From Mesorhizobium sp. M2A.F.Ca.ET.046.03.2.1 (GTDB lineage Bacteria; Pseudomonadota; Alphaproteobacteria; Rhizobiales; Rhizobiaceae): DNA of 64,000 nt. A program made the position numbers and the translations under genes. Numbering within the stretch: position 1 is the first letter of the stretch; each line of letters opens with the position of its first letter. Below the pieces are notes generated by a model. It was not told the origin of the DNA. It saw only the letters and a program-made list of their open reading frames with translations, and ran no database searches. Positions 2,374 to 18,214 of the stretch are shown piece after piece. The stretch covers positions 1 through 64,000 of the forward strand of contig NZ_CP034449.1 in NCBI RefSeq assembly GCF_003952425.1, in the 5' to 3' direction.

Positions 2374-3234
2374 ATGCGTTACATACGTCCGCTTTCAATC
2401 GAAGATGCCGTTGGCGAGCTCGCCAAGGCGGTAGGACCGGCCGCCATCCTGGCCGGAGGCAGCGACTTGCTGGTGAGGATGAAGGGCGGCTTCATCGAGC
2501 CCGAGCTGATCGTCGACATCAAGCGCATAGGCGGCCTGGCCGACATCACGGAAACGGCTGACGGCTTCCGCATCGGCGCCGCCGTGCCCTGCGCGGTGCT
2601 GGGCGAGAACAAGGCTGTGCGCAAGGCATGGCCGGGCGTGGTCGAGGCCGCGAACCTGATCGGCTCCAAGCAGGTGCAGGGCCGCTGCACCATCACCGGC
2701 AATCTGTGCAACGCATCGCCCGCCGCCGACAGCGTGCCGGCGCTGGTGGCCGCCGGGGCCAAGGCCGTCGTCGCCGGGCCTTCGGGCAAGCGCACCATTG
2801 CCGTCGAGACCGTGCCGACGGGACCGGGCCGCACGTCGCTCGCCAAGGGCGAGATCATCGAGGCGATCCTGCTCGACAAGCGTCCTGAGCAGGCGGGCGA
2901 TGCCTATCTGCGCTTCATTCCGCGCACCGAGATGGACATCGCGGTGGTGAGCGCCGGCGTGAACCTGACGCTGGACGAGCATGGCGCGATCAAGACCGCG
3001 CGCGTGGCGCTGGGCGCCGCGGCGCCCACGGTGCTTCTGGTCGAGGAAGCGGGCCAGGTGCTGGTCGGCTCGAAGCTCGACGAGGCGACGCTGGAGCGGC
3101 TGGCGAAGATCTGTTCCGGCGCCTGCCGGCCGATCGACGACAAGCGCGGCACCATCGAATTCAGACGGAAAGTGGCGGGCGTGCTGGCAAGGCGCGTCGC
3201 GGCAATCGCCTACAAGCGTGCGGGAGGCAAATAA
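2374..3234 (+). CDS. Xanthine dehydrogenase family, FAD-binding subunit M
   Basis: A 286-residue FAD subunit of a molybdenum hydroxylase. It passes electrons from the 2Fe-2S subunit to the final acceptor through FAD. The N-terminal FAD motif is LAGGSDLLVRMKGG and the second is TITGNLCNASPAADSVPAL, both typical of CoxM/XdhB-type subunits; the C-terminal CO_deh_flav_C region follows. I chose ATG 2374 over an upstream in-frame start because MRYIRPLS is the family-like beginning and follows AAGGGGAG. The stop overlaps the next start by one base, so translation is probably coupled. The gene order is medium-small-large. Confidence 0.92.
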   Translation: MRYIRPLSIEDAVGELAKAVGPAAILAGGSDLLVRMKGGFIEPELIVDIKRIGGLADITETADGFRIGAAVPCAVLGENKAVRKAWPGVVEAANLIGSKQVQGRCTITGNLCNASPAADSVPALVAAGAKAVVAGPSGKRTIAVETVPTGPGRTSLAKGEIIEAILLDKRPEQAGDAYLRFIPRTEMDIAVVSAGVNLTLDEHGAIKTARVALGAAAPTVLLVEEAGQVLVGSKLDEATLERLAKICSGACRPIDDKRGTIEFRRKVAGVLARRVAAIAYKRAGGK

Positions 3235-3710
3235 TGGCCGGTGTAGCTGTATCAACCACGATCAACGGCGATGCCGTCGAATATCTCTGCCAGCCCGACG
3301 AGACGCTGCTGGAAGTGCTGCGCGATCGCCTCGGCCTGACCGGCGCCAAGGAAGGCTGCGGCACCGGCGACTGCGGCGCCTGCAGCGTCATCGTCGACGG
3401 CAGGCTCGTCTGCTCCTGCCTGGTGCTGGGCGCGGAAGCGGAAGGCCGCAAGGTCGAGACCATCGAAGGCATGGCGCATGGCGACCAGCTGCACCCGCTG
3501 CAGCAGAAGTTCCTGGAGCATGCGGCGCTGCAATGCGGCGTCTGCACGCCCGGCTTCCTGATCGCTGCCAAGGACCTGTTGGAGAAGAACCCCTCGCCCA
3601 CCGAGGAGGAAATCCGCTTCGGCCTCGCCGGCAACCTTTGCCGCTGCACCGGCTATGACAAGATCGTGCGCGCCGTCCAGGACGCAGCGAACGTGATGAA
3701 GGGAGCCTGA
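3234..3710 (+). CDS. Xanthine dehydrogenase family, 2Fe-2S subunit
   Basis: A 158-residue iron-sulfur subunit with both expected clusters. The plant-ferredoxin-type site is CGTGDCGACSV with the further Cys in LVCSCL. The C-terminal four-helix site is CGVCTPGF plus LCRCTGYDKIV. It relays electrons from the molybdenum centre to the FAD subunit. Length matches the family. It starts inside the stop codon of the FAD gene and ends three bases before the large-subunit ATG, so all three are one transcription unit. Confidence 0.95.
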   Translation: MAGVAVSTTINGDAVEYLCQPDETLLEVLRDRLGLTGAKEGCGTGDCGACSVIVDGRLVCSCLVLGAEAEGRKVETIEGMAHGDQLHPLQQKFLEHAALQCGVCTPGFLIAAKDLLEKNPSPTEEEIRFGLAGNLCRCTGYDKIVRAVQDAANVMKGA

Positions 3711-3713
3711 TCC

Positions 3714-5977
3714 ATGAATTTCGATCCGCGCTTTTCAGGACGCCAGTTCGCTTCCGTCGGCACGCGCCCGATCCGCCCCGACGGCATCGACAAGGTGACG
3801 GGCCGCGCCCGCTACGGCGCCGACTTCAACATGGCCGGCCAGCTGGTGGGCCGGATCCTGCGCAGCCCGCATGCGCATGCGGTGATCAAGAGCATCGACA
3901 CGTCCAAGGCGGAAAAGCTCGCCGGCGTGAAGGCGGTGATCACGGCGAAGGACCTGCCGGACCTCACCGATGGCGACGCCGCCATGTACGACATCCTCGA
4001 CAACTCGATGGCGCGCAAGAAGGCGCTCTATGACGGCCATGCGGTGGCCGCGGTGGCGGCGATCGACGCCCGCATCGCCCGCCAGGCGCTGAAGCTGATC
4101 GAGGTCGAGTATGAGGTGCTGCCGCATGTCACCGATGTCGACGAGGCCGCGCACCACCACGCGCCGCTGATCAACGACCAGGTCTTCACCGAGGGCCTCG
4201 AGGAAAAGCCGGCCAAGCCTTCCAACGTCACCAAGCGCACGCAGTTCGGCCATGGCGACGTCCACAAAGGTTTGCCGAGGCCGATTTCGTCGTCGAGCGC
4301 TCCTTCAAGACCGAGCAGACGCATCAGGGCTATATCGAGCCGCATGCCTGCGTGGCGAGCGTCAACGCCGACGGCACGGCGGACCTGTGGGTCTGCACGC
4401 AAGGCCATTTCGTCTACCGCCAGCATTGCGCCCAGCTGCTCGGGCTCGAAGCCTCGAAGCTGCGCGTCACCTCGTCGGAGATCGGCGGCGGCTTCGGCGG
4501 CAAGACCCATGTCTGGGCCGAGCCGGTGGCGCTGGCGCTGTCCCGCAAGGCCGGCCGTCCGGTGAAGCTGGTGATGACCCGCGACGAGGTGTTCCGCGCC
4601 TCGGGCCCGACCAGCGCCACCTCGATCGACGTCAAGATCGGCGCGAAGAAGGACGGCACCATCACCGCCGCGGAAGCGACGCTGCGCTACAGCTCCGGTC
4701 CCTATGCCGGCTCTTGGGCCGAGATCGGCGCGATGACGGCCTTTGCCTGCTACAAGCTGGAGAACGTCAAGACGGTCGGCTACGAGGTGCTGGTCAACCG
4801 GCCGAAGACGGCGGCCTATCGCGCGCCGTCGGCGCCGATGGCGGCCTTCGCGGTGGAAAGCGCTGTCGACGAGCTCGCCAAGGAGCTCGGCATGGATGCG
4901 GTGGACTTCCGCATCAAGAACGCCGCGCAGGAAGGCACCCGCGCCTCCTACGGCCCGGTCTATGGGCCGATCGGCATCGGGCCGACGCTGGAGGCGGTGA
5001 AGCACCATCCGCACATGAAGGCGCCGCTCAAGGAAAACCAAGGGCGCGGCATGGCCTGCGGCTTCTGGTTCAATTTCGGCGGCCAGACCTGCACGGACCT
5101 GAACATCGGAATGGATGGCTCGGTGTCGCTGGCCGTGGGCACGGTGGATGTCGGCGGCTCCCGCGCCTCGCTGTCGCTGGTGGCGGCGGAAGAGCTCGGC
5201 ATCGACTACAGCCACGTGAAGGCGATCGTCGCAGACACCTCGTCGCTCGGCTACAACGACATGACCGACGGCAGCCGCGGCACCTTCTCCTCCTCGATGG
5301 CGACGATCTCGGCCGCCCGCAATGCTATCAAGATCCTCCGCGAGCGCGCCGCGCAGATGTGGGACGTGCCCGTGGACGACGTCCATTGGGAAAAGGGCCA
5401 TGCCATCGCCAAGGGCGAGAAATACGGCAACCTCTCGCCGCTGTCGCTGAAGGACATCGCGGCGAAGTCCGGCACCACCGGCGGGCCGATCGCCGGCCAT
5501 AGCGAGCTTGTGGCCGACGGCGCCGGCGTTTCCTTCGCCACGCATATCTGCGACGTCGAGGTCGACCCCGAGACCGGCTCGACCCGCGTGATCCGCTACA
5601 CGGTGGTGCAGGATGCCGGCAAGGCGGTGCACCCGACCTATGTGGAGGGCCAGTACCAGGGCGGTGCGGCGCAAGGCATCGGCTGGGCGCTCAACGAGGA
5701 GTATATCTACGGCAAGGACGGGCGGCTGCAGAATGCGGGCTTCCTCGACTACCGCATCCCGGTCTGCTCCGACCTGCCGATGATCGACACGCAGATCCTG
5801 GAAATCCCCAATCCCAACCACCCCTATGGCGTGCGCGGCGTTGGCGAGACCTCGATTGTGCCGCCGCTGGCGGCGATCGCCAACGCGGTGTCGAACGCGG
5901 TGGGCGTGCGCATGACCCACATCCCGATGTCGCCGCCGCGCATTCTCGCCGCGCTGGACGCGGAACGGGAAGGCTAA
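3714..5977 (+). pseudogene. Xanthine dehydrogenase family, molybdopterin-binding subunit, frameshifted
   Basis: This is the catalytic large subunit, which would be about 754 residues if repaired. The first reading frame (from ATG 3714) is good up to GHGDVHKG near 4270. Family sequence then resumes in another frame with AEADFVVERSFKTEQTH and continues to the stop at 5977. One base is missing around AAAGGTTTGCC (4266-4275). The rest is intact: GGGFGGKTH in the cofactor region, the AYRAPSAPM motif in place of the CO-dehydrogenase CSFR loop, and the catalytic Glu in RGVGETS near the C terminus. So it is a hydroxylase but not a form-I CO dehydrogenase. The lesion is either a recent mutation or a sequencing error; the otherwise perfect downstream frame favours something recent. 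Confidence 0.88.
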
Positions 5978-6036
5978 GGACGAAAGGTGCGCAGCAGCTT
6001 TCGTCTCACCACGCTGCGCTGTGGGAGTTATCCCTA

Positions 6037-6282
6037 ATGGTTGAGGTCACCCTCTGGGGCTCGCTCAGCGCCGTCGCCGGGGGCAAGGCCAGGCACGAGA
6101 TCGAGGCCAAAGACATCAGGGAGCTGTTCCGCAAGCTGGCGGAACAGTATCCCGGGATAGAGCCGTGGATCGACCGCGGCATCGCGGTGGCGATCGACGG
6201 GACGATTTATCGCGATACGTGGAGCAAGGAACTGCCCGAGGGGGCGGAGATTTTCCTGCTGCCGCGGTTGGCTGGGGGGTAG
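6037..6282 (+). CDS. MoaD/ThiS-family sulfur carrier protein
   Basis: An 81-residue beta-grasp protein starting MVEVTLWGSL and ending in the diagnostic Gly-Gly (LLPRLAGG), which is adenylated and thiocarboxylated in this family. It lies 59 bases after the molybdenum hydroxylase large subunit on the same strand. A dedicated carrier for sulfur in molybdopterin synthesis or cofactor maturation is the simplest reading, but the housekeeping moaD would normally lie elsewhere. No MoaE partner is adjacent. Confidence 0.85.
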   Translation: MVEVTLWGSLSAVAGGKARHEIEAKDIRELFRKLAEQYPGIEPWIDRGIAVAIDGTIYRDTWSKELPEGAEIFLLPRLAGG

Positions 6283-6415
6283 CGAGCGAGCGGCCTCCGC
6301 CATCGCTGGGTTCGCCGATCCGCGCCCCCTCGGGGAGCCCCTACAAACGTCACCAGCCAGCGGCGGCTCGTGTGCTCCCCCCGCTTTCGGGCAGGGCCGC
6401 TCCCGGACGGATGGT

Positions 6416-6547
6416 TTACCGGGTTGGCCGGTCTTCACGCATGACGTTGTAGAGCAGCAGGCCCGCCATCAAGGACACCACGGCGCCCACCACGTCATGC
6501 CCGGTCAGCCCGGAATAATACACGAAAGCAAATGCCAGCTCGGCCAT
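6416..6547 (-). CDS. Small membrane protein, 43 aa
   Basis: A short frame beginning MAELAFAFVYYSGLTGHDVV and ending with a charged tail (MREDRPTR). The central part, VVGAVVSLMAGLLLYNV, is a probable membrane helix. The start is preceded by GGTTGGAGCC, a modest ribosome site. No known family. It lies alone between the MoaD-like gene and the DUF768 pair. Real but unproven; the amphipathic-free helix plus charged tail is more protein-like than random GC-rich sequence. Confidence 0.42.
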   Translation of the reverse strand: MAELAFAFVYYSGLTGHDVVGAVVSLMAGLLLYNVMREDRPTR

Positions 6548-6708
6548 GGCTCCAACCCAGGATGCGAGGGACTTCTCCGGGAGAACCTCCAGGGCGCGCT
6601 AATGTTCCTGACGGCCAGCGCCGATCTTCGCCGGCTGCGCCTGGCGCAATTCCAGGAAAAGTGTGAGCGGTTTTCCGTCCGGAAGCGACACGGACGGCCG
6701 TGCGATGC

Positions 6709-6933
6709 TCAGGCTCCGTCGGTTTTCCCGGAGCCGACGATCGCCGCCAGGATCGCTTCGTATGCGCTTCCGGTCTCCTCCTCGATCTCCTCCTCGGAGA
6801 TGCCGGCTGCCTTTGCATCGGCGAACAACTTGCTCGTCAGCTCGGCCACCGAGACGATGTCCGCACCCACCTTGCCGCGCATTACATTATCGGTGATCCA
6901 GCGGCCAAAGAACTCCGCGCCACGTTCGCTCAT
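6709..6933 (-). CDS. DUF768 family protein (short)
   Basis: A 74-residue acidic helical protein. The N-terminal MSERGAEFFGRWITDNV is the DUF768 hallmark (MSxRGxxFxxxW), followed by the family pattern AELTSKLFADAKAAGIS and a Glu-rich turn EEEIEEETG. Function unknown; the family is essentially rhizobial. Its ATG overlaps the stop of the upstream DUF768 gene by four bases, so the two are translationally coupled. It lacks the C-terminal extension of that partner. Confidence 0.88.
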   Translation of the reverse strand: MSERGAEFFGRWITDNVMRGKVGADIVSVAELTSKLFADAKAAGISEEEIEEETGSAYEAILAAIVGSGKTDGA

Positions 6934-7301
6934 CCGCCCTGCTCTTTCAGAAAATGCGCCTCCCGAAGGAGCGCTTCCCAGTCGGTCCCGATCGTCTCGA
7001 TCAGCTCGCTGGCCTGTTCCTGCGTGATGCCGGTTTCCCTCGCCAGGCGCCCTGAGAGCAATTCGAAGACAGCCTGGTCGCCCTCCCCCAAACTGCCTTC
7101 GCGATGTTGCAGCGCCTCGAAGATCACCTCGAAGACGCTGTCGACTTCCTCGTCGATCTCGCTGGCCGCGATGCCTTCGCGCGCGGCCGCCTTCATCATC
7201 TCGTCGGCAAGATCGCCCACCGCCACCGGATCGTCCGTCAGCACATTCGGCAGATGCTCCGCCATCCATTTGTCGAAGAAGTCGAGACCGCGCCTGCTCA
7301 T
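6930..7301 (-). CDS. DUF768 family protein with C-terminal helical motif
   Basis: A 123-residue protein. Residues 1-70 are DUF768 (MSRRGLDFFDKWMAEHLP, DLADEMMKAAAREGI, ASEIDEEVDSV). The C-terminal third carries a second small helical unit, TGITQEQASELIETIGTDW, which recurs in three other small proteins of this window (30359, 33223 and 39762). First gene of a coupled pair. A third, more divergent DUF768-like gene is at 30873-31226. Function unknown. Confidence 0.9.
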   Translation of the reverse strand: MSRRGLDFFDKWMAEHLPNVLTDDPVAVGDLADEMMKAAAREGIAASEIDEEVDSVFEVIFEALQHREGSLGEGDQAVFELLSGRLARETGITQEQASELIETIGTDWEALLREAHFLKEQGG

Positions 7302-7522
7302 GTGGCCATAAGCGCGCGGGGAATATTAGGTTCCGCTGATGGGGACTGAGGTCGCATACGCCGGCGCATTGGTCTATCGCCTGAAACATAAGCCCGGCCA
7401 TCTCATTAGGGCTTCGCTGACGAGCAATCAGTCCCTTCATCGTCAGTGGCTGGATCGCCCGCCACTTGCCCACAGGTGGCGGGCGTCCGATCGAAGAACA
7501 AGAACCGGGGCCGAGGTGAACA

Positions 7523-7720
7523 ATGTCGATTTCCGATGAGCTGCGGGACGCGAGTCTTCGCTATGAATGCCCAAACTGCCACCAGCCGATCATCAGAAAC
7601 GGTTCGTGGTTCAAGGCAGTGAGCACCTTCCGCTGTGAGGCCTGCAAGACCAAGCTCAGGCTTGGCTACTCGGCCAAGCTGGCGCTTTTCAAACAACACG
7701 GCAAGGCGCCGGGGGCGTGA
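7523..7720 (+). CDS. Small zinc-ribbon protein
   Basis: A 65-residue protein with two CxxC knuckles, CPNCHQP and CEACKTKL, 23 residues apart. It should fold as a zinc ribbon. Basic C terminus (KLALFKQHGKAPG). No enzymatic domain is present, so it is probably a nucleic-acid or protein adaptor. A second small zinc-ribbon protein is at 33568. Confidence 0.7.
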   Translation: MSISDELRDASLRYECPNCHQPIIRNGSWFKAVSTFRCEACKTKLRLGYSAKLALFKQHGKAPGA

Positions 7721-7723
7721 CCC

Positions 7724-8071
7724 ATGCGGCTGAGTGCCTGCGAGCCCTTTGGCGAGCAGCAGTTCCTTTTCCGGGAGCGGTTGCCGGCAAACGACAACAG
7801 CGCGCTGGACCATCGCAACCTTTCCCTTCTCAGTCTCATCCCAGCCGACGACGGACCCGCAAAGATTGCCGCGAAAGCGGAGCGGATGAGCATTGCCGCG
7901 GCCGTGGGCATGGCGATCGGCCTTTTCATCGGGCCGGTCTCATGCCTGATGCTGGGCATCCGGAACGGGGCGTTGGACAATGAAGGAGGCAAGCATGATC
8001 ACCACGACGTTGGAAACCAGGGTGGCGGGTTTGCAGGACAGGCTGAGGGCGGCCAAGCTCAGCATGGATGA
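7724..8071 (+). CDS. Hypothetical protein with one membrane segment
   Basis: The frame begins four bases after the zinc-ribbon stop and would encode 115 residues with a hydrophobic segment, MSIAAAVGMAIGLFIGPVSC. The C-terminal tail, rich in Gly, His and Gln, is read out of frame through the start of the next gene, which has a much better ribosome site. So this may be a spurious or shortened frame. Low confidence. Confidence 0.33.
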   Translation: MRLSACEPFGEQQFLFRERLPANDNSALDHRNLSLLSLIPADDGPAKIAAKAERMSIAAAVGMAIGLFIGPVSCLMLGIRNGALDNEGGKHDHHDVGNQGGGFAGQAEGGQAQHG

Positions 8072-8177
8072 CATGCTGGCCTTCCAGAAGGTCGCGGACG
8101 TGCTGGACAATGGCCATGGCGGCATCGACCTCGACGACCTGATCGCGCTGTCGTTCGTGGTGGAGGATGAGGATTGA
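7995..8177 (+). CDS. Small helical protein, 60 aa
   Basis: Begins MITTTLETRVAGLQDRL and is predicted to be all helical and acidic at the C terminus (SFVVEDED). The start is set by a strong AAGGAGG seven bases before ATG 7995; an in-frame ATG at 7980 has none. Unknown function. It is the last gene before the AT-richer module on the opposite strand and is convergent with it. Confidence 0.62.
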   Translation: MITTTLETRVAGLQDRLRAAKLSMDDMLAFQKVADVLDNGHGGIDLDDLIALSFVVEDED

Positions 8178-8225
8178 GGGGCTCCGCAGACCTGGCCCAG
8201 ATAATCGAAGATCCATCTCAAACGA

Positions 8226-10250
8226 CTAGCCAATTTTCTGTAGAATGTATCCAGGGAAGATTACTTCTTGGCATTCGATGGTGGCAGTTATGCGTTGAAG
8301 CGTTTCAAGGTCTTCGCTCGTTGAGAAGATTATTTGCTGATTTGCGCCTTTTGCCTTTGACGCTCGCTTGAGAAGATTCTGGAAACTGGGGCGCGAAGAC
8401 GACTGCTGGCGCGGCTCGTCGAATATTAGCATTCCCGGGTGATTAGTTTGCTTCTCTCTTGCGAGTTCGATCAAGCTTAGCTGGTATGACCATTTCAGCC
8501 GAATAGCATCACTTGCCGATGTCTCGAAACCAATTTCAAACCCTTCCTTTTCGGGTCTGTAGCTATCTTCAGAGATCGACAATTCGGAAGGCGAAAAAGT
8601 ACTGAATCCAAAATCTCTTGCTTGACTTTGAACGAGTTCTGTCAGGTGACTAAGCTTGCTCTGGTCGCTTTGTGATAGCTTCTCCTTCGGAAGATTTGCG
8701 CGTTCTTCAAGGAGCTTTGCATAGGCGTCCTGCAAATCGCGGAGGTGATCAATAGCATCATTGAAAACGGCCTGTAGGCCTTCGATGTCCCGAATTCGTG
8801 CCTCGCTTCGAATTCGCTCTTCGATCACAGCCGCCGAGGGGTTTGATCCCGGCGCAACAAGTTCCGATCGCAAAAGCCGAATTTCTGCATAGTGCTCGGC
8901 AAGCTGTCGACTTATAGCCGACAACTGATCCCTGCGTTCATTTTCGTCAGATCGCTCCCTGGCGAGAATACCCTCAAACATTCTCTTTTGTGACCGAATG
9001 TATTCAATATTGTCCGAGACCGGCATGACTGCCGTTAAAGCGTTTTGCGACAATAGTGTGTCTATAAGCGCCTGCTCACAGGTTGGACATCTGTCTGGCG
9101 TTAACGCAGCCGTGACGCCTGAGTAGCGCTGCAGTCGCTGTACATCAAGATTCTTGGCTAAATCATCATCGAGGCTAGCGATACGTCGCTCTAGCGACCT
9201 GATGTCCGCGATCTTTAACTGTTGAGCGCTATGAATCCTTATCCGCTCCGAATTGAGCTCGTCGACCGTAGCGGCCAATTGTTCGAGTTTCAGTGAGACC
9301 TCTTCAGACTGGTCCTCAACCATTGGGATGGCTTGATCAAGGAGGCTCGCCACCGTCCCTCTCAGTTGAGATAGCACGGCGCCGAGAGTGACCCATTCTG
9401 TTCCCTGTGCTAACTGTATATATGGTCTCGACAACGCATCTGGATCAGCAAGAGGCATATCGCTCAGGGCCGCCACTCTGCCGCCCCCTCGAGCAACATA
9501 AAGCTCCAATTCCTGCCGAATAATGGACCACTGCTTCGCATTGGCTGCGATCAGTTCGGCAAGCCGCTCCCTTTGCATTTCAAGTTTGTGGACGTCGAGA
9601 TCTAAGATGAATTCAACAGCTCGCTTATGAACTTCCCGTATCCTCATGTAAGTAGGGATCGCAGCTGGTATCGCGGACCAACCAAACTTCTGTTCAACCC
9701 AGAACATTGGAAACACGGTTTCCAAGTAAAGTTTCGTTTCAGGCGCGTCGTATCGCCTTACCTGGGGCAGGCGCCATCCTAAAAATTCCTCTAGAAAGTG
9801 ATGGAACCCATCCTCTCGTTGCGCGGCACCCGGATCTAGAACGAAGAAATTCTGCCGCCTTAGACCAACTGACCCTTCTGTTAACAAGGGCCCAAAATCC
9901 ACTGTGATCAATCGCGTGTCAGTTGTACCTTTCACTACTCGGCCAACCGTGATGATCTGCTCTTCTCCGTTGGATATCTCAAGCGAAACGCTCGATTCGA
10001 GAACTTCCACACGTTTATCGCTGTCAGTATTTAGATAACTCGTCATCGCGTGAGGAAGTGGAATTTCACGTCTCGGGCTAAGCATCCGTTCCAACCCGAG
10101 CGCATAGAGCATGCCCTGCATGCACGTTGACTTGCCCTTAGTGTTATCTGCCCACAAAACTGTCAAACCAGAAGCGAAGGGCACATCCGCGCCGTAGACG
10201 CCATCTGTTGTCACTGCGCGAAGCCGCAGAAGCCGAAATCTGAGGGTCAT
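8226..10250 (-). CDS. ABC-3C-type SMC/Rad50-like ATPase
   Basis: A 674-residue P-loop ATPase. The Walker A is WADNTKGKSTCMQGMLYALG (first Gly replaced by Ala). Long coiled-coil arms run on either side of a Rad50-like cysteine hook, RCPTCEQAL. The Walker B is GMLIFDEPRQQ near the C terminus. The motifs FGWSAIPAAIPTYMRI and HKRAVEFIL match the SMC-like ATPases that form the core of ABC-three-component conflict systems. Start ATG 10250 overlaps the upstream stop by four bases and has GGAGG seven bases ahead. The protein likely uses ATP-driven arm movement to gate the nuclease-like partner; this role is inferred from the class. Confidence 0.85.
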   Translation of the reverse strand: MTLRFRLLRLRAVTTDGVYGADVPFASGLTVLWADNTKGKSTCMQGMLYALGLERMLSPRREIPLPHAMTSYLNTDSDKRVEVLESSVSLEISNGEEQIITVGRVVKGTTDTRLITVDFGPLLTEGSVGLRRQNFFVLDPGAAQREDGFHHFLEEFLGWRLPQVRRYDAPETKLYLETVFPMFWVEQKFGWSAIPAAIPTYMRIREVHKRAVEFILDLDVHKLEMQRERLAELIAANAKQWSIIRQELELYVARGGGRVAALSDMPLADPDALSRPYIQLAQGTEWVTLGAVLSQLRGTVASLLDQAIPMVEDQSEEVSLKLEQLAATVDELNSERIRIHSAQQLKIADIRSLERRIASLDDDLAKNLDVQRLQRYSGVTAALTPDRCPTCEQALIDTLLSQNALTAVMPVSDNIEYIRSQKRMFEGILARERSDENERRDQLSAISRQLAEHYAEIRLLRSELVAPGSNPSAAVIEERIRSEARIRDIEGLQAVFNDAIDHLRDLQDAYAKLLEERANLPKEKLSQSDQSKLSHLTELVQSQARDFGFSTFSPSELSISEDSYRPEKEGFEIGFETSASDAIRLKWSYQLSLIELAREKQTNHPGMLIFDEPRQQSSSRPSFQNLLKRASKAKGANQQIIFSTSEDLETLQRITATIECQEVIFPGYILQKIG

Positions 10251-10735
10251 AGCAAATCCTCCAACCGCCAAACCCTCTTCATCAAAGCGTCCGTCATGCG
10301 GGGCGCTACTTCGCTTAGGAATCGCTTTTCCTCTTTTAGTGAGTCCTCCTCTGCGAGAATCGCATCGGCCATTTTCGTTCCTTGATCCGTCAATGACACT
10401 GATGTTCCCTTTTCGATTTGCACTAGCTTCAAAGAGTGGGCGAAAGCCACAGCTCGATTTAGAAACGGCTCGACACGCACGGAAATATCCGCTGGCTTGT
10501 ACTCACCGGACAGGAGGCCGCGCACTTCATTCCGCCCTTCCGCGAGGCGCACCGAATGGGCCAAAAATTGCAGCTTCTGGAAGTTCGACCTTCTTCCACG
10601 GCTATGAAATAGAGCGAGTATTAGTACCGCAATCCCCCACGACATGCGGAGATCACCTGGAAGCGGATCAGGTCTGGCGGTGTACGTGAATGAACTATCC
10701 AGAAGCACACGACGAAAAATAGATTCAGTGGACAT
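10247..10735 (-). CDS. ABC-3C-type middle component
   Basis: A 162-residue protein placed between the nuclease-like gene and the ATPase, overlapping both (11 bases and 4 bases). It has the size and helical, winged-helix-like pattern of ABC-3C middle components: a hydrophobic segment (MSWGIAVLILALFHSRGRRS), KLQFLAHSVRLAEGR, and a wing-like segment (VQIEKGTSVSLTDQGTKM). Middle components are thought to bridge effector and ATPase. No catalytic residues are visible. ATG 10735 is preferred because it is nested in the end of the upstream gene; longer readings lack family support. Confidence 0.72.
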   Translation of the reverse strand: MSTESIFRRVLLDSSFTYTARPDPLPGDLRMSWGIAVLILALFHSRGRRSNFQKLQFLAHSVRLAEGRNEVRGLLSGEYKPADISVRVEPFLNRAVAFAHSLKLVQIEKGTSVSLTDQGTKMADAILAEEDSLKEEKRFLSEVAPRMTDALMKRVWRLEDLL

Positions 10736-11642
10736 CGGGAAAATCCAGCGGGCAACGCATAATCCACTCACAGATCGACCCGTATGCAATTTGCTCCGCA
10801 TTCTCGGTAGAAATGCTTGGCGCCGTGACTTGCACCGCAGCAATGAGGGCATCTAGTTCTGCGTGCAGTATCTCTCCCACCGATCCGCTGGCCTGCGGCC
10901 CGGCAAATTGAAGACGACGAGCCCGGCTCTTAATTGCCGACATAACCTTCTCGTGGAGATCTGGCGCGCCAGATCGCAGCGCATCAAGCAAGGCATTGCC
11001 TTGAAGAAACGACTTGATAGCGTCGGCGACCACATCCTCAATTTGATCGGGAGCGGCCCGCTTTTTTAACTTTCGTGTGACGTTGGCCAGCAGGTCGGAG
11101 GAACCTGCAGCCCAGTTTTCAAGCTCCGTCTTCGAGAGAGCCGGGATGCTGAGAGTTACCTTTGAAAGGGCTGAGATCCCGGCTGCGACTGCTTTGCTGG
11201 GAAAAGCACTCGGGTCCTGAATTGCGACTTCGAAGCTTGCGTCGAGCGCAGCGCAGTTGGCAGCCCGAAGATCACCAGTCTTTTTCGCGCAGTGGAGATT
11301 GACATCTTTGCTGTCGTGCAATGGCGTGAGCAGCACCCAGTGCTTGATCGGCAATCCCAGGAATAACTTTGAAATTTCCGTTTGCTTTAGGACAATTTTT
11401 GCGAGATCTGTAGTTATCTTCTTCTTTTGACGATCGGCCCGCACCACAATATCGACCGGCTCCTCGACAGCGTAGCATTGATAGGCTACCAGCTCCTTCG
11501 GACAATAATAATCAATCCCATAGTCGCCCTTGTGAGCTGCCGGAATTTTGTGCACGTGCAAAGGACCGTGCCGACTCTGAAGGAGACTGAAGGCGAATAG
11601 CTCCCACTCGTCTGGATTCCAGACTTGAACTGCACTCGACAT
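10725..11642 (-). CDS. ABC-3C-type effector with restriction-endonuclease-like N-terminus
   Basis: A 305-residue protein and the first gene of the three-gene unit. The N-terminal 120 residues resemble an Mrr-like PD-(D/E)xK fold: an early acidic helix (DEWELFAFSLLQ), GDYGIDYYCP supplying the Asp, then VAYQCYA, where the usual E-x-K strand is replaced by Q-x-Y. The rest is helical and could contact the middle component. In ABC-3C systems the first gene carries the toxic or nucleic-acid-targeting domain. The nuclease assignment is by motif only; catalytic competence is uncertain. Confidence 0.7.
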   Translation of the reverse strand: MSSAVQVWNPDEWELFAFSLLQSRHGPLHVHKIPAAHKGDYGIDYYCPKELVAYQCYAVEEPVDIVVRADRQKKKITTDLAKIVLKQTEISKLFLGLPIKHWVLLTPLHDSKDVNLHCAKKTGDLRAANCAALDASFEVAIQDPSAFPSKAVAAGISALSKVTLSIPALSKTELENWAAGSSDLLANVTRKLKKRAAPDQIEDVVADAIKSFLQGNALLDALRSGAPDLHEKVMSAIKSRARRLQFAGPQASGSVGEILHAELDALIAAVQVTAPSISTENAEQIAYGSICEWIMRCPLDFPDVH

Positions 11643-11833
11643 ATCAAGCGATCCCCCCGGACCCTACTAGCTTACAACCGAAGCGCCAGAATTCAACACA
11701 TAGCTTGGACCAAGAGAATCATCCATTGTAGACCATTAGAGTATACCGTTCTCCCAATTTCACCTAATCTAGTCATCTAAAGATGCGTATGCACAACTCC
11801 TTCAAACGGAAGGTATGCGTATTCGCCGTCCCC
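11643..11833. other. AT-rich intergenic region upstream of the ABC-3C-like module
   Basis: About 190 bases with much more A/T than the surroundings. It holds the presumed promoter of the minus-strand module and a short repeated word, ATGCGTAT, near 11783 and 11813. It marks the right end of the foreign-looking segment. No gene seen. Confidence 0.5.
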
Positions 11834-12104
11834 TCACACCCCCAGCGTCGGCTCCGTATTCACATCCAGCCTCATCCTCCTCGCCGAGCACTTCGCCATG
11901 CACGCCGAGCGCGCGGCCGATCCAGATCGGGTCGATCAGGTGGTCCCATTTGGTCGTGTTGGGGTAGATGAGGAAGTGGTTCAGCATCAGCCAGGGCACC
12001 AGCGTGGCGAAGACCTCGGTGGCGAAGGAGACCTGATACATGGCCTGCCCGTCCAGGCCGACCGGCTCGTCGCGCCAGTTGCCGAGGCGCAAGCGAAACG
12101 CTCG
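11834..12104 (-). pseudogene. Decayed DOPA 4,5-dioxygenase-like gene
   Basis: The minus-strand reading contains FRLRLGNW, then [20 protein letters not shown], then IDPIWIGRALGVHGEVL, collinear with the intact gene at 18215-18640. The first roughly 45 residues are missing. A frameshift near 11860 separates EDEAG from the proper ending LDVNTEPTLGV, whose stop is at 11834. So it is 5'-truncated and frameshifted. It lies directly beside the AT-rich module, which may have landed in or near it. Confidence 0.85.
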
Positions 12105-12156
12105 GGCCGAATATAACGCTGGTTTCCTTCTACATCGCGACCGCCCTCGCTGCGCT

Positions 12157-12720
12157 CTACTTCGCCTTCCCCTTATCCTCCCCACCACCCTCCTGCGCCT
12201 TCGGCGCCGGGGCGGTCGTCACGCCGATGGCGGAGATGCGCCAGCGGTTGTCGACGTTTTCGAAGGACAGGTCGAAATCGATCTCCAGCGGCTGCGTGGG
12301 AAACAGGCCGACCAGGTGCAGCTGCTTCTGGGGATCGAGAAAGGGCGGCGTGGAGAGCTGCGGGGCGACGACGGCAACCGCCGTCAGGTCGGCGCCGGAC
12401 TGGCGCAGCGCCTGGAACCTGATCGCGAGGTCGGCGGCGGTGTTCTGGGCGCGAAAGCCTGGCGAGCCCATGTCCCTCAGCACGGTGAAGTTGCCTGTTT
12501 CCACCGCCTGCTGGAGAGCCATCATCGTGCTGCGGGCAAGGTAGATGGCCTGCGCGGCGTTTGCCGGCCACGCGGGCGCAGTGGGCGCCGGTGCTGTCGG
12601 CGCCGCCTTCTTCTTGCCCGGCGCCGGCGCCTGGGTCTGCGTCTGGGCAAGACCCGGCCCGGCGTCGCAAACGGCCAGCATCGCCGCCAGGAGAATCGTG
12701 ACTGTTCGCATCGGGATCAT
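12157..12720 (-). CDS. Secreted NTF2-like hypothetical protein
   Basis: 187 residues with a signal peptide (TVTILLAAMLAVCDAGPGLA), a Pro/Ala/Lys-rich linker, and a globular part whose ending (IDFDLSFENVDNRWRISAIGV) is typical of NTF2/SnoaL-like alpha-beta cones. Probably periplasmic or surface-associated. It starts 19 bases after the stop of the trimeric autotransporter on the same strand, so the two probably form an operon and it may aid or accompany that protein. ATG 12711 is an alternative start. Function otherwise unknown. Confidence 0.75.
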   Translation of the reverse strand: MIPMRTVTILLAAMLAVCDAGPGLAQTQTQAPAPGKKKAAPTAPAPTAPAWPANAAQAIYLARSTMMALQQAVETGNFTVLRDMGSPGFRAQNTAADLAIRFQALRQSGADLTAVAVVAPQLSTPPFLDPQKQLHLVGLFPTQPLEIDFDLSFENVDNRWRISAIGVTTAPAPKAQEGGGEDKGKAK

Positions 12721-12739
12721 CCTGGCGCGCCGGCGCTTC

Positions 12740-14779
12740 CTACCAGCTCATCCTCAAGCCCAGCCGTCCGCCGGCCATACTCCGGTTGGGATCGAAGGCG
12801 ATGCCGCCATTGAGCTGGAGCTGCGAGCCGAGCCGGGCGCCCGCGCTGAGCGCAAAGGCATTGGCGCCCTCGAAGGTGCCCCAGTTCAAGGTGGTGACGA
12901 ATTTTTCGTCCGGCAGCACGGTCGGCGCGCCGGCCAGCGCCATCGCCATGGCGACGCCGGAATAGGCACGGCTGCCGACGCTGTCGATGCGGGAATTGAG
13001 GCTGTTGAATTGCGCGGGATCGGAAAAGCCGAGCGAGCCCGGGGTCACGGAGGCGAGATGGCCGCTGGCATCGGTGGTGACGATCTCGATCGCGCCGGTC
13101 TGGGCCGATGAGCTCGCCGCCGACGTCAGGCCGGGCATCGAATAGGTGTTGCCCGCCGTGCCGAACACCTGCTCGTTCTGCCTTGTCGCGACCGCGCCCG
13201 AGCCGTAGGCGGCCGAGCCCGCATAGGCGGCGCTGGCGCCGGTGCCGATCGCAACGGCGTTCAGCCCGGCCGAGGATGCGCCCGACCCCATGGCGATCGC
13301 GTTGGCGCCGGTCACCGTCGTGCCATTGCCGAACGCCATCGCATTGGTGGCGTTGACCGTGCTGCCCGATCCGATCACCACCGATCCCGACGAATTGGCG
13401 GTGCTGGCGACAATGTTGTTCGAGCCGAAGACCTGGATGCCGTTGCCGTTGCCGGCGACGTTCGGGGCGTTGACGGCATTGTCGTCGCCATAGACGAAGG
13501 ACTTGTCGCCATTGACGACATTGGGGTCGCCGATCGCGTAGCTGCCATTGCCCCTAACGGTGTTGCCGGTGCCGAAGGCGCCGCTATCGTCGCCGGTGAC
13601 GCTGTTGTTCGAGCCGATGACGGTGGTGTTGTCGCCCTGCGACTGGTTGTTGGTGCCGCCGGCCAACGCATTGGTGCCGCTGGCGTTGCTGCCCGAGCCG
13701 GCCGCGGTGGAGTTGGTGCCGCTGGCGTTCGGCTGCGCGCCGGAAGCGGTCGTGTCGTAATAGGGCGGATTTCCGCCGCCGCCGCTGATGCAGGTCAGGT
13801 CGCCCGCGGCATTGGTGCCGATGCCGGAGGTGCAGCCCGCAAGCGATGCGAAGCGAACGGTTCCCACGACGTCGAGGCCGGCGGCCGGCGCGGTCGTGCC
13901 GATGCCCACATTGCCGTTTGCGTCGATGGTCATGCGGGTCACGCCGTCGGTGGCAAGCAGAAGCCGGCCGCCCGAGCCGGTGGCCGAATGCGCGTTGATC
14001 ATCGAGGTGCCGACGCCGAAGCTCGCGCCGCTATAGCCGAAAGTCAGCGCATCCGCGTTGGCCGCCGAGGATACGCCGATCGTCTCGAACGTATCCTGCG
14101 TGGCGGTTCCATAGACATGCAGCTTGCTGGTGGGGGAAGCGGTGCCGAGACCGACATTGCCGTTCGCTGCGATGTCGAGGCTGCTCGTCGGCGCGCCCGG
14201 CCGGATGCGGAACGGCATCTGGCTGCCGTTCGTCAAGTCGCGTATGAAGAAATTCGTCTCGTTGCCGCCTACGTCCCAGGTCTGCGCCGTGAAGCCGCCG
14301 GCGTTTGTCTGCTCCAGGCGGATCGCCGGCGTGTCGCTTCGGGTTATCTGCAGGCCGAGAGCCGGGCTGGACGTGCCGAGGCCCAGATTGCCGAAGCTGT
14401 TGACATAGACCGAATTCTCGGGAGCGCCCGCATCGACGCGGAACACCATCTTGTTGCTCGTCGCATCCTGGATCCCGAAGTAATTGGCGCCACCAGAGCC
14501 GGAATCGTTCGCAATCAGCGCCCAGTCATTGGCGGCAAATCCGGCGTTCGTGCTCGTGTCGTCGAAGTAGATGCGTGTGTTGTTTTCCTTCATGACGATC
14601 GTGTTGAACCCGAAGGACTCGTTGTCGACGCAGTCGAGCCCGACGCAGAGGCTTCCTTGAACGACCTGGTCGTTCGCAACGACATTGTCGGCAAGCGCGT
14701 CGGCGACCGGCATGGCGAGCATCGCGGCGCCGAGGCGCAACGCCAGGCATTTCGTCGCGAGCTGTTTTGGTTTCGCCAC
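12740..14779 (-). CDS. Trimeric autotransporter adhesin, YadA-like, with tail-fibre-like repeats
   Basis: A 679-residue surface protein. A signal peptide (residues 1-30) precedes a region with repeated GNVGLGTASP / GNVGIGTTAP units (about residues 130-310), which resemble phage tail-fibre and chaperone-type shafts. A YadA head region with short repeats such as NAMAFGNGTTVTGANAIAMG follows. The last roughly 75 residues are a YadA anchor (beta-barrel, ending GGRLGLRMSW with C-terminal Trp). The anchor trimerises in the outer membrane and exposes the passenger. No long coiled-coil stalk is seen. Likely adhesion to surfaces, hosts or other cells. Confidence 0.87.
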   Translation of the reverse strand: MAKPKQLATKCLALRLGAAMLAMPVADALADNVVANDQVVQGSLCVGLDCVDNESFGFNTIVMKENNTRIYFDDTSTNAGFAANDWALIANDSGSGGANYFGIQDATSNKMVFRVDAGAPENSVYVNSFGNLGLGTSSPALGLQITRSDTPAIRLEQTNAGGFTAQTWDVGGNETNFFIRDLTNGSQMPFRIRPGAPTSSLDIAANGNVGLGTASPTSKLHVYGTATQDTFETIGVSSAANADALTFGYSGASFGVGTSMINAHSATGSGGRLLLATDGVTRMTIDANGNVGIGTTAPAAGLDVVGTVRFASLAGCTSGIGTNAAGDLTCISGGGGNPPYYDTTASGAQPNASGTNSTAAGSGSNASGTNALAGGTNNQSQGDNTTVIGSNNSVTGDDSGAFGTGNTVRGNGSYAIGDPNVVNGDKSFVYGDDNAVNAPNVAGNGNGIQVFGSNNIVASTANSSGSVVIGSGSTVNATNAMAFGNGTTVTGANAIAMGSGASSAGLNAVAIGTGASAAYAGSAAYGSGAVATRQNEQVFGTAGNTYSMPGLTSAASSSAQTGAIEIVTTDASGHLASVTPGSLGFSDPAQFNSLNSRIDSVGSRAYSGVAMAMALAGAPTVLPDEKFVTTLNWGTFEGANAFALSAGARLGSQLQLNGGIAFDPNRSMAGGRLGLRMSW

Positions 14780-15139
14780 AAGCCACCTCCCCCGAGGATC
14801 AATGATCGCAGACGTGCAGGCTTATGTGCCGGCCGTCGGTTTGGCAAGCAGTAGAAGCGCTCGCCGCCGGTCTTTATCGCGGGTGTGTTCCCAGAACATC
14901 ACCAGTAACGGCCGGGCTGTGTTCAGACTCTTTTCCAGCCTGGATTGTGCCGGCCATTGCGCGGCCTCAATGTGAACTGCACAGACCACCGTGTCGCGCG
15001 GTGTATTTTAGTTATACCGAATATATGCAGCTGTCCGGTTGTCCCCTTCCCGGCCCCCGGTTGGACTCGCTCGCGTGGAACCAACATGCCTCTGGCGCGT
15101 AGTTTCGCCATCGTTCCCAGCACAAGAAGGCAGGTGTCC
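14780..15139. other. Intergenic region without a supported gene
   Basis: About 360 bases between the divergent autotransporter and a small plus-strand gene. It should hold both promoters. Open frames here lack family features and good ribosome sites. Around 15003-15025 there is a short AT-rich stretch (TTTTAGTTATACCGAATATA) that could belong to a promoter. Confidence 0.5.
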
Positions 15140-15490
15140 ATGGCCGTCCGCAGAAAACGCAGGAAGCACTCCGGCAGCGACCTCTTGCTGGCGCCGGCGG
15201 TCATCGGCATGCGGGTGCCGCTGCTGGTGCTGGATGCCATGAGCCACGCGCCCAACGGGCGAGAGGCCTTGCAGGCGGTGCAGGAAAAGGCGCTTGCGGG
15301 AACGCAAGGGCTGTTCGCGGCGCAGGCAAAGATGCTCGAGGCGGCGTTGCGCTTCTGGCCTGACGTCCTTTCCGGCAAAAGCCCGTCGCTTTGCGATGGA
15401 ACCGTGGCGATGGAAGCGGCGGCGGCTGCCCTGTTGCCCGCGGCCAGGCAGGTGCGGCGCAATTTCGACCGTCTTTCGAAACGGCGCTGA
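15140..15490 (+). CDS. Hypothetical protein, 116 aa, basic and helical
   Basis: Starts MAVRRKRRKHSGSD after AGAAGGCAGGTGTCC. The rest is Ala-rich and helical (GREALQAVQEKALAGTQGLF, then AAAAALLPAARQVRRNFDRL) and ends in basic residues. The overall look is loosely phasin-like, but no diagnostic motif is present. Function unknown. Confidence 0.6.
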   Translation: MAVRRKRRKHSGSDLLLAPAVIGMRVPLLVLDAMSHAPNGREALQAVQEKALAGTQGLFAAQAKMLEAALRFWPDVLSGKSPSLCDGTVAMEAAAAALLPAARQVRRNFDRLSKRR

Positions 15491-15545
15491 CCGCGCCGCT
15501 TGCAGCAGCCGGGCGCCGGTGCGGGACAGGCCGCTTTGGCGCAGC

Positions 15546-16073
15546 CTAGCCGATCGTTGCGAGGAACCGATCGGTGAAGCCGGCGAGCGCGTTCCAGTCG
15601 GTGAATTCGTGATCCTGCCCGGGGCCTGGATCCTCGCCCTTCATGACGACGAATTTGACGAACTGCTCCTGGAAGTAATCGTATTTGGTGAAGCGCAAGG
15701 CGCCGCCCAGCAGAAGCGTCATGCGCGGCTGCCACCCCGTCACGGAAACGAAGCGGTCGACATATTTCCGGGCAGCGGCCTCGTGGCCTTCCAGCGCCGC
15801 CGACAGGCTGACCGATACCAGCGCCGAAGGCTTGCCGCTCAACAGGTCTCGATGCGCGAATACGAAGGTCGTGACGGCTTCCTGATGGTGCTCCTGGTGG
15901 ACCGACGCGGCAATAACGAAGGCGTCGAAATGCCCGAGCTTCAAATCGGGCGTGAACTTCGCGCTGTCCAGCAATTCGACCTGATGCCCGCGCCCGCGAA
16001 TGTCGGTCGCCATCCGTTCGGCGACTTTCCTGGTCTGCCCTTCAGTCGTTCCATAGACAATCAAGAGGTTCAC
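15546..16073 (-). CDS. Flavodoxin-domain protein, HemG-like
   Basis: 175 residues. The N-terminal LLIVYGTTEGQTRKVAERMA is the flavodoxin FMN phosphate loop (TxxGxT). DAFVIAASVHQEHHQ and GWQPRMTLLLGGALRF match HemG-type protoporphyrinogen oxidases and related flavodoxin-fold dehydrogenases. I prefer the GTG at 16073 because GGAGG lies six bases before it and the flavodoxin strand starts at once; an upstream ATG at 16100 is possible. Whether it acts in heme synthesis cannot be told, though two heme proteins lie next to it. Confidence 0.82.
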   Translation of the reverse strand: MNLLIVYGTTEGQTRKVAERMATDIRGRGHQVELLDSAKFTPDLKLGHFDAFVIAASVHQEHHQEAVTTFVFAHRDLLSGKPSALVSVSLSAALEGHEAAARKYVDRFVSVTGWQPRMTLLLGGALRFTKYDYFQEQFVKFVVMKGEDPGPGQDHEFTDWNALAGFTDRFLATIG

Positions 16074-16509
16074 GACGTCCCTCCGAGGGTGGAAAGGCAT
16101 TGATGGGGACAAGCCAGTGCCGTCTCGACCGGCGCGCCTGCGCCCCACTACAACGGAGCGCATCATAGCGCATGAAAGGGGTTTCACGCAGCGATTTTCG
16201 CGGCGGGGCGGATGCCGGGGTGTCCGCGCGACGGACGGAGCGGGGTAGCGCTGCCTTATGTGACGCGGCTCGACTTCCATCCGCCAAGGCTTATGCGATC
16301 ACGCCATCCCGCGGCGGGTGTTTTTTAGCTACCTTGAATATTGCGGCGGACGCAGGTTCGCCGGGCCGGCGCCGGGGCGGGTGCTCCCATCAGGCAACAG
16401 GCGCCGGCCACCTGGAGCGGCCTGCTGGTCACGCGCCGGCCCGGTGTTGACCGCCGGTGCCGCTTGCGCAGCCGACGCCGGCGCGCCCTTCTGTCCAGCC
16501 CGGGCGCTG
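16074..16509. other. GC-rich intergenic region without a supported gene
   Basis: About 430 bases between the flavodoxin gene and the cytochrome gene. CCCGCGGCGGG followed by TGTTTTTT near 16308-16328 could be a weak plus-strand terminator. Remaining frames are Ala/Pro/Arg-rich noise typical of high-GC sequence. Confidence 0.45.
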
Positions 16510-17046
16510 CTATTCGCGGCTGTCGGCGAGCTCGTTCGAGGCGAGCGGGTTCATGCGCTCCAGCGTTCCGTCCTTCATGACGAACTGGTGCCATATCGCG
16601 ATCAGCGCATGGGCGCCGGCCAGCCACAGGATCAGCGTGCCGCCGGTTTCGTGCAGGTCGGCGATCAGGCCCGGCGCGCCCTGCACGGGCGCGGCGAGCG
16701 CCGGCAGGTCCAGCCCCAGGAAGGAGACCTGGATGCCGAGGCGCGAGGCGGCATACCAGCCGCTCAGAGGCAGCGCGATGAGGAACAGATAGAGCACCGT
16801 GTGCCCGGCGCGCGCGGCAAGGTCCATCCAGCGGCTCTGCGGGTCCTCGACGCGGGGGGCAGCGCCCAGCCAGCGCGCCAGCAGGCGCGGGACGACCAGC
16901 AGCAGCACGGCGAGGCCGAGGGTGAAATGCAAATAGGGCGGGTCGGCGCGCGCATGGCGCCCGCCCTCGGCGGTGAACCAGGCGATGACGACCAGCAGGG
17001 CCGTAAGCCAATGGATCGCGATGGTGATCTGTGAATAGCGCCGCAT
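16510..17046 (-). CDS. Cytochrome b561 family protein (CybB-like)
   Basis: 178 residues with four membrane helices. It starts MRRYSQITIAIHWLTALLVV, where the His of IAIHW is a heme ligand; a second is in LHFTLG, and further His residues are in ADLHETGG and HALIAIWHQF. Such small di-heme proteins move electrons in the inner membrane, for example from quinol or superoxide. A second, divergent cytochrome b lies 120 bases upstream on the same strand, together with a PepSY protein. Confidence 0.88.
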   Translation of the reverse strand: MRRYSQITIAIHWLTALLVVIAWFTAEGGRHARADPPYLHFTLGLAVLLLVVPRLLARWLGAAPRVEDPQSRWMDLAARAGHTVLYLFLIALPLSGWYAASRLGIQVSFLGLDLPALAAPVQGAPGLIADLHETGGTLILWLAGAHALIAIWHQFVMKDGTLERMNPLASNELADSRE

Positions 17047-17169
17047 CGGGCTTGCTCCGTCTTGTCAGGCACGCGCATGCCGAGGTCGGGAACGCCTCGG
17101 CACGCAACGTTCATATGGTTCCGCGGGCGTCCAGGCAGGCGCCCGCAGTTGCCCCGCAGCGGGGCGCGT

Positions 17170-17760
17170 TCAGGCGATGTCGGCCGGCGCGGCTTTGCGC
17201 TTGCGGCCAGTGATCATCGCGCGAACAAGGTTTTCATTGTGGCGAAGGCTTGCCAGCGCCACGCCGCCGATATGGACGAGCACCAGCGCGAGCAGGCCGT
17301 GGGCGGCCAGGCTGTGCGCGTCCTCCACCCAGGATACGCCGAAATACGCGTCCGTCGTCTGCATCCACCCGGTCACCGCCACCGACACCATCATGGCCAT
17401 CAGCACGAGCACCATCGCGCCGCCCGCCGGGTTGTGGCCGATATAGCGGGCCTCGCTGCCTCTCAATATGGCAAGGAGATAGCGCAGCACCGTCGCGGGA
17501 TCGCGCACGAATTGCGAGAAGCGCGCATAGGGCGTGCCGACGATGCCCCACACCAGCCTCATGGCGACAAGCGAGGCGGCGGCGTAGCCGGCCCAGTGGT
17601 GGATGTTCTCGGCGCTTTGCGGCGTAAACCAGGCGATGGCGAAGCTCAGCACCAGCGCCCAGTGGAAGCCGCGCACGACACGGTCCCAGACGCGCACCAC
17701 GTCGCGGTGCGCCTGGGCCTGTGCCGGCAAGGCTCGATCAGTTTTCGCCGGCTTCGGCAT
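17170..17760 (-). CDS. Cytochrome b/b6-type di-heme membrane protein
   Basis: 196 residues. The opening VRVWDRVVRGFHWALVLSFA is the Ni,Fe-hydrogenase-I-type cytochrome b561 start (heme His in FHW). Further candidate ligands are in NIHHWAGY, AHSLAAHG and VLVHIGGV. Four membrane helices and a basic C terminus (GRKRKAAP). Its start overlaps the end of the PepSY gene by 23 bases, so the two are co-transcribed. Likely electron transfer between the membrane and a periplasmic partner. Confidence 0.88.
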   Translation of the reverse strand: MPKPAKTDRALPAQAQAHRDVVRVWDRVVRGFHWALVLSFAIAWFTPQSAENIHHWAGYAAASLVAMRLVWGIVGTPYARFSQFVRDPATVLRYLLAILRGSEARYIGHNPAGGAMVLVLMAMMVSVAVTGWMQTTDAYFGVSWVEDAHSLAAHGLLALVLVHIGGVALASLRHNENLVRAMITGRKRKAAPADIA

Positions 17761-18013: not shown

Positions 18014-18214
18014 GGGATATCCATCCGGTTGGGAGGTTGCGGCGCGGCTGAGGATTCAGCCGACAGGCCGTGACGGCTTGCGCGCGTCATTGGCGAGGCA
18101 TAGCTGATCCAAGCTGACAACCGACTGACAGCCTTCCCGAGGGGCGGGCGCGGCGCGGGAGATCCGGGCGGCGTGCCCGATATCGCTGAATTTTTCGGCT
18201 AAGCCGGCAGGCTC

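Follow-up and report, generated by a model that had tools for sequence, protein, structure and literature searches.

Can a defence nuclease keep cutting when the lysine of its catalytic motif III has been replaced, and does the ATPase encoded beside it turn over ATP? This question is raised by an operon of three minus-strand genes at the start of Mesorhizobium sp. M2A.F.Ca.ET.046.03.2.1 contig NZ_CP034449.1, of which positions 1 to 64,000 were analysed (the window). A preliminary description of the same DNA had proposed an ABC-three-component (ABC-3C) module of a restriction-endonuclease-like protein, a small winged-helix-like protein and a Rad50/SMC-like ATPase. It had noted that the effector keeps the Asp of a PD-(D/E)xK site and has Q-x-Y where E-x-K is expected. 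Taking all observations together, we consider it likely that the genes form a chromosomal Lamassu (ABC-3C) defence operon in the order lmuA-lmuC-lmuB (A-C-B), of a branch in which the nuclease LmuA uses a displaced lysine, K75, and LmuB keeps its Walker B glutamate.

Family identity and relatives of the operon

Each of the three proteins matches a Lamassu profile in PADLOC-DB: LmuA matches PDLC03852 (7.7e-28, residues 5-295), LmuC matches PDLC03871 (2.3e-18, residues 17-156) and LmuB matches PDLC03863 (6.8e-107, residues 1-653). Pfam and NCBIfam gave no match over their cut-offs for any of them, with no Pfam family at E <= 1 for LmuA. PDB sequence searches returned nothing usable; with a core LmuB as query, the DUF3732 chain 9hqu came up weakly. 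The Lamassu superfamily, whose activity and composition have been described, takes in Lamassu types I and II, ABC-3C and DdmABC (PMC10586767), so the ABC-3C name given earlier agrees with the PADLOC assignment. The accompanying remark that such systems are hardly tested is out of date. A Janthinobacterium Lamassu type II system lowered phage plating in E. coli (PMC8565338), DdmABC is active against phages and plasmids (PMC12409362), and experiments have established the system type (PMC8565338, PMC10586767, PMC12409362).

The gene order, the protein sizes (305, 162 and 674 aa) and the overlaps of 11 bases between lmuA and lmuC (10725-10735) and of 4 bases between lmuC and lmuB (10247-10250) are as first described, and so is the CPTC hook of the ATPase (C388-P-T-C391). 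The three genes are the whole gene content of a segment that is indeed A+T-richer than its surroundings. G+C is 51.3-53.7% across 8001-12000 and 61.5-69.4% in 5001-8000 and 12001-20000 (1-kb steps), a comparison with these flanking steps rather than with the whole chromosome. Third-position G+C is 0.51-0.58 in the three genes versus 0.62-0.91 in other open reading frames picked mechanically from 1-24000, although the picking itself favours high third-position G+C. When LmuB was searched against its own genome (E <= 0.001), the single match was LmuB itself.

Relatives were sought in plasmid, genome, viral and phage collections. Among 72,556 plasmid records, tblastn found LmuA in 23 and LmuB in 24, and all 20 of the LmuA plasmid records listed fall among the 24 with LmuB, which came from a separate search. 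An alignment-based scan, for which two short motifs served as seeds, found 71 loci in genome contigs and two in viral contigs. Adding eight loci from plasmids and two genomes of the family brings the set to 83 loci (L003-L085), in which L006/L015, L034/L035/L036 and L084/L085 are sequence-identical and, judged by length and place, each of the pairs L003/L021 and L004/L024 is one and the same contig. LmuA, LmuC and LmuB matches lie on one strand in A-C-B order in 79 of the 83, and homologues are thus neighbours in other genomes too. Among the exceptions, contig ends truncate L046 and L067, in the remnant L048 the beginning of LmuA runs into the end of LmuB, and L081 encodes a different, large protein. 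Seven loci (L005, L009, L016, L030, L031, L032 and L076) have LmuB shortened or split over reading frames, with LmuA and LmuC open. The three frames are judged not to be chance ones, because LmuA and LmuB relatives turned up in separate searches and the same three-gene order is met with in many phyla.

Hosts belong to the Pseudomonadota, Cyanobacteriota, Actinomycetota, Bacteroidota, Bacillota and Thermodesulfobacteriota, and one plasmid is from the Gemmatimonadota. The system is rare: LmuA occurs in 3 of 297 family genomes, the present one included, and at least 5 of 398 genomes in a phylum survey have an effector with the Q-x-Y strand (QxY effector) next to LmuB, as judged from the loci returned. 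Plasmid copies have as neighbours Shedu (L250), BREX genes (L241), or repABC with mercury resistance genes (L007). No match was found in 50,697 phage records (E <= 0.01), and two identical IMG/VR viral contigs (L084, L085) carry the operon. Phage carriage of the present copy was rejected on the phage-record result and on the flanking proteins tested, which are not phage-like.

The operon shares with Lamassu type II and ABC-3C systems (LmuA-LmuC-LmuB; DdmABC) its A-C-B order, a Rad50-like LmuB with a CPxC hook (present in many, not all, Lamassu LmuB), a small middle component, a nuclease-type LmuA with a C-terminal region, and a sporadic, acquired distribution. It differs from them in the motif III Q-x-Y of LmuA, with a conserved lysine 18 residues past Y57, and in the Walker B Glu of LmuB, generally Gln in that family (PMC10586767). 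The predicted nuclease and the ATPase of this branch both depart, at positions key to catalysis, from the ordinary Lamassu genes with which they were compared.

Predicted catalytic residues of LmuA and LmuB

The nuclease-like fold proposed for LmuA is supported by profile comparison. The alignment of its N-terminal domain (A2) and an alignment of 22 Mrr_cat domains (PF04471), gathered by family search, gave an hhalign probability of 89.2; this value, like the other hhalign values, comes from one pairwise comparison and is uncalibrated. The aligned features are the motif I helix Glu, GD-x-G-(I/L)-(D/E), which meets the GDGGID motif II of Mrr_cat, and the Q-C strand, which meets the Q-x-K strand. 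Forty column-shuffled targets reached at most 3.1, 40 shuffled queries at most 1.6 and the reversed target 0.4, and LmuC, used as a decoy against the two profiles, gave 0.2 and 0.6. Mrr_cat differs in having the canonical lysine, and LmuA in having no Pfam match. The Cap4 nuclease (PF14130), the effector domain of V. cholerae DdmA, acts in a Lamassu operon in a comparable role (PMC12409362). LmuA has no PF14130 match, nor was one found in its own genome, and this identity was rejected.

The motif I Glu and motif II Asp of PD-(D/E)xK are present in LmuA, and motif III (E/Q)-x-K is replaced by Q55-C-Y57. The residues are thus those first reported (G-D40 ... Q55-C-Y57), and what had been offered as a possible new variant turns out to be clade-wide and coupled to a lysine elsewhere, not a lesion of this copy. 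A site broken in this copy alone was rejected, since the same residues occur throughout the clade. Across 74 distinct rows, D40, Q55, C56, K75, D79 and K82 are invariant, position 57 is Tyr in 72 and Phe in two, and the motif I residue E14 is Glu in 64 of 73 and Gln in nine. Most of these rows come from the motif-seeded scan and are hence biased towards those motifs. We also collected 23 QxY effectors by tblastn or profile, independently of the motifs (ten are also among the 74 rows, and some are near-identical). Here Q55, D79 and K82 are kept in 23 of 23, K75 and D40 in 22 each, and position 57 is Tyr in 22 and Phe in one; position 56 varies among Cys, Ser, Met and Ala. Loci were examined for 18 of the 24 LmuB plasmid records, and 17 have a QxY effector; the other, L242, has another effector type and lies outside the 23.

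The core LmuA clade (L086-L097, found with the PADLOC profile PDLC03852) belongs to the same PADLOC family and has (G/N)D-x-G. All 12 members compared have a Q-x-K strand and a lysine equivalent to K82 with an acid at -3, equivalent to D79. At the K75 position, located by counting back from the K82 equivalent, none of the 12 has a lysine. The motif III lysine is thus gone exactly where a lysine is gained in the next segment. The i, i+4, i+7 spacing of K75, D79 and K82 would fit residues on one helix face. Migration of the lysine from motif III to the motif IV helix has been described in other PD-(D/E)XK families, with correlated changes used as support (PMC1913061). Among them, DUF1626, DUF506 and DUF790 have lost the strand lysine and have conserved basic residues in the next helix; in them the moved lysine is often arginine, and Lamassu goes unmentioned in the part of that source drawn on (PMC1913061). 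In the QxY branch, K75, in motif IV after the third core strand, probably stands in for the lost motif III lysine.

QxY domains were also seen outside the operon. One lies at the N-terminus of large proteins in L081 (identical to L101) and L102, whose open frames span about 1,262 and 1,130 aa and show, by eye, an HSP90-like ATPase motif, ELYQNALDA; the PADLOC LmuA call on L102 comes from the N-terminal domain alone. L103 encodes, at 898-1881 on the minus strand, a 328-aa protein with QCY and K-M-T-D-D-F-A-K, and its neighbouring frame resembles, by eye, the start of another ABC-type ATPase. The co-occurrence of Mrr_cat and QxY domains on the same large proteins was not borne out for L166-L169.

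In LmuB the catalytic Glu of Walker B, which the preliminary description had missed, is kept. All 62 rows in the main set of QxY-associated LmuB have it (the set omits nine named near-copies and rows no longer than 620 aa), as do 12 of 13 further QxY-associated rows, the thirteenth (L241) being a 404-aa reading frame badly aligned at Walker B. By contrast, Glu occurs in none of the 23 rows of non-QxY LmuB-like groups. These comprise 12 core LmuB (Ser in eight, Thr in four) and 11 other LmuB-like rows (five Gln, two Thr, two Ser, one Gly and one Asn), a set that includes neither L138 (Thr) nor the L140 fragment (Glu). For LmuB with the usual Gln, it has been proposed that hydrolysis is low or absent and that activation cannot be reversed (PMC10586767). 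Retention of the Glu in the QxY branch probably means ATP turnover rather than binding alone.

The middle protein could be aligned with a MarR profile only weakly (hhalign 44.05 over 36 columns around the wing; 40 shuffles gave at most 0.79). This match is suggestive of the winged helix first assigned to LmuC and does not prove it.

The operon could work as follows. Two LmuB subunits, held together by the CPTC hook and the ATP heads, would survey DNA as a dimer and engage features of foreign or replicating DNA, such as ends or hairpins. LmuC would bridge LmuB to LmuA and hold LmuA silent; the C-terminal region of LmuA may serve in docking. On activation, LmuA would be released or oligomerise and cut DNA, which would stop propagation of the phage or plasmid and probably damage the cell. 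Lamassu sensors are thought to answer aberrant DNA, with LmuA freed and forming tetramers (addendum of PMC12409362, quoting preprints).

The insertion site

The operon occupies a cargo site, or hotspot, that had also escaped the preliminary description (Table 1). Flank searches covered 61 genomes of the genus, and eight sibling loci (L203-L210) were chosen for a left flank aligning to about 8180. In the eight, the left alignment ends at 8179-8182, just past the stop of a 65-aa open reading frame. On the right, six siblings resume at 11822-11833, where the converging DOPA-dioxygenase-like element ends, and L203 at 12138, and L210 matches only 12016-12076.

Table 1. Features of the operon and its insertion site (window positions)
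Feature	Positions	Strand	Remarks
lmuA (LmuA effector)	10725..11642	-	305 aa, ATG start; Mrr-like PD-(D/E)xK-type N-terminal domain and C-terminal region
D40 codon, motif II acid	11523..11525	-	74/74 distinct rows; 22/23 motif-independent loci
Q55-C56-Y57 codons, motif III, Tyr for core-clade Lys	11472..11480	-	Q 74/74; Y 72, F 2
K75-I-T-T-D79-L-A-K82 codons, candidate motif IV with relocated lysine K75	11397..11420	-	K75, D79, K82 74/74
lmuC (middle component)	10247..10735	-	162 aa; possibly winged-helix
lmuB (Rad50/SMC-like ATPase)	8226..10250	-	674 aa
lmuB Walker A region, ADNTKGKST	10125..10151	-	G39 72/72, K40 71/72
lmuB zinc-hook-like CPTC (C388, C391)	9078..9089	-	C 69/69 at both positions
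lmuB Walker B D611-E612, catalytic Glu kept	8415..8420	-	Glu in 74/75 QxY-associated rows
A+T-rich inserted segment with the operon, between 3' ends of two converging flanking genes	8181..11829	.	sibling alignment edges
Left flanking 65-aa ORF, 3' end at left hotspot edge	7980..8177	+	end kept in 8/8 sibling loci
Right flanking DOPA-dioxygenase-like element	11830..12104	-	Pfam PF08883 1.2e-08 on ORF 11802-12188

The cargo differs from sibling to sibling. L203 carries an NB-ARC/TPR protein that has a SIR2 match below threshold, L204 a type IIG/ISP restriction-modification enzyme (3.3e-76), L205 a DUF5677 protein, L206 a CoiA-like protein and L207 Upx (8e-214), with others in L208-L210. PADLOC searches with seven cargo proteins gave two strong matches, one weak match and four without a match; the unknown genes at the hotspot are candidate new defence genes. 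In six of the eight siblings the cargo has 51-56% G+C, in L208 and L210 it has 62-63%, and an empty site was seen in none of the eight. The DOPA-dioxygenase-like element is repeated, with a second copy in the window at 18217-18518 and several copies in siblings, and recombination between copies could drive the turnover of cargo. Window genes after 12129 are shared by L203 and L204 only, and L208 has pieces of the 15-16.5 kb region of the window before its element. Farther along, 12740-14779 on the minus strand encodes a 679-aa candidate YadA-like trimeric autotransporter, with YadA_head at the cut-off and YadA_anchor below it.

Alternative readings and significance

Several observations count against a defence operon with a K75-dependent nuclease and a hydrolysing LmuB. 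LmuA found no nuclease match in Pfam, NCBIfam or PDB sequence searches. Between the A2 and core LmuA profiles hhalign gives a modest match (49.9 over the N-terminal part, 28.4 overall, given without a shuffle control), and hmmsearch with the A2 profile (E <= 10) missed core LmuA; what connects the two LmuA clades is therefore the PADLOC profile together with hhalign. That K75 lies close to D40 is proposed from sequence, and the lysine may have been exchanged just once in evolution, in which case the sequences do not count as independent. In L245 (Priestia plasmid, 2580-3515), the operon persists without D40 (GGGLG) and with K75 changed to Glu; it is the sole locus of the 23 to lack either residue, and its LmuC and LmuB are annotated as open.

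For LmuB, the glutamate is also kept in L242, a Shewanella plasmid locus with a different effector, and in L140, a 323-aa LmuB-like fragment (LVMDEP) in whose locus no QxY effector was seen; therefore, the Walker B Glu is not tied to the QxY nuclease. L242 (1365-6005) encodes an MBL nuclease and a trypsin-type LmuA, and thus resembles Lamassu systems with a trypsin-MBL pair (cf. PMC12799240); it agrees with the QxY branch in the Glu of its LmuB and differs from it in the effector. A FastTree tree of LmuB unites the core rows in a single group (local support 99), and the QxY-associated LmuB do not form one clean clade, with two label changes and L242 and L144 among or next to them. Comparison of these rows indicates that the Walker B Glu marks a sensor group somewhat wider than the QxY effector. 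No promoter was recognised for the operon, as sigma-70-like promoter and terminator matches were no better than in shuffled sequences, with none upstream of lmuA on its strand. In L205-L209, five of the six siblings that resume at 11822-11833, the sequence past the DOPA-dioxygenase-like element matches the second copy region of the window (~18.2-18.9 kb), and it is therefore ambiguous which copy bounds the site there. Finally, that this very copy defends its host is argued from its genes and their relatives.

Three other explanations were weighed. The Lamassu operon might carry a QxY effector that is no longer a DNase, having lost metal-dependent cleavage, and that binds DNA or attacks, e.g., RNA. 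The clade-wide absence of the canonical motif III lysine, the lack of a curated nuclease profile matching LmuA and the persistence of the L245 operon without D40 and K75 would all suit such a protein. Nevertheless, E14, D40, Q55, K75, D79 and K82 are among the best-kept positions across phyla, as in an active site, migration of the lysine to motif IV is known in other families (PMC1913061), and the same domain sits N-terminally on unrelated large proteins, like an interchangeable effector. We regard a non-DNase effector as unlikely. The operon might instead serve mainly in competition between mobile elements or in plasmid stability, the chromosomal copy being a plasmid passenger. Of the 24 plasmid records with LmuB relatives, 16 are typed conjugative or mobilizable, and copies lie on a Ti plasmid, on two pSymA plasmids and beside repABC. 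But here the operon is chromosomal, the cargos of its hotspot include host-type defence genes, and host defence and competition between elements do not exclude each other, so that a chiefly plasmid-serving role appears rather unlikely.

The remaining explanation, a Rad50/SbcC-like complex for DNA repair in place of defence, draws on the Rad50-like LmuB with its hook and intact Walker B and on weak NCBIfam matches to SMC-related models. Such a role is hard to square with the rarity and patchiness documented above, with the A+T-richness of the operon, with its place in a cargo hotspot or with LmuA and LmuC as partners. We consider it very improbable; a housekeeping Rad50 was rejected on the patchy distribution.

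A Lamassu defence operon with a K75-dependent nuclease thus remains the reading we prefer. A literature search of openly licensed papers, in the portions consulted, gave no description of a QxY/K75 effector or of a glutamate-keeping LmuB, and the branch is provisionally regarded as new within Lamassu. We put forward, tentatively, that it is a Lamassu class not distinguished so far, combining a relocated-lysine nuclease with a hydrolysis-competent LmuB, in which ATP turnover could proof-read or reset DNA sensing and the effector domain is portable to other putative defence ATPases. If so, proof-reading or resetting by ATP would contrast with the one-way switch proposed for lineages that lack the glutamate, and the widespread Glu-keeping branch would offer a natural comparison for asking whether hydrolysis makes the switch reversible. 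Through the lysine exchange, catalytic relocation in a defence nuclease can be tested simply by mutation, and the exchange also gives a short sequence rule for spotting such effectors elsewhere; the hotspot is a place to seek further defence genes in the genus.

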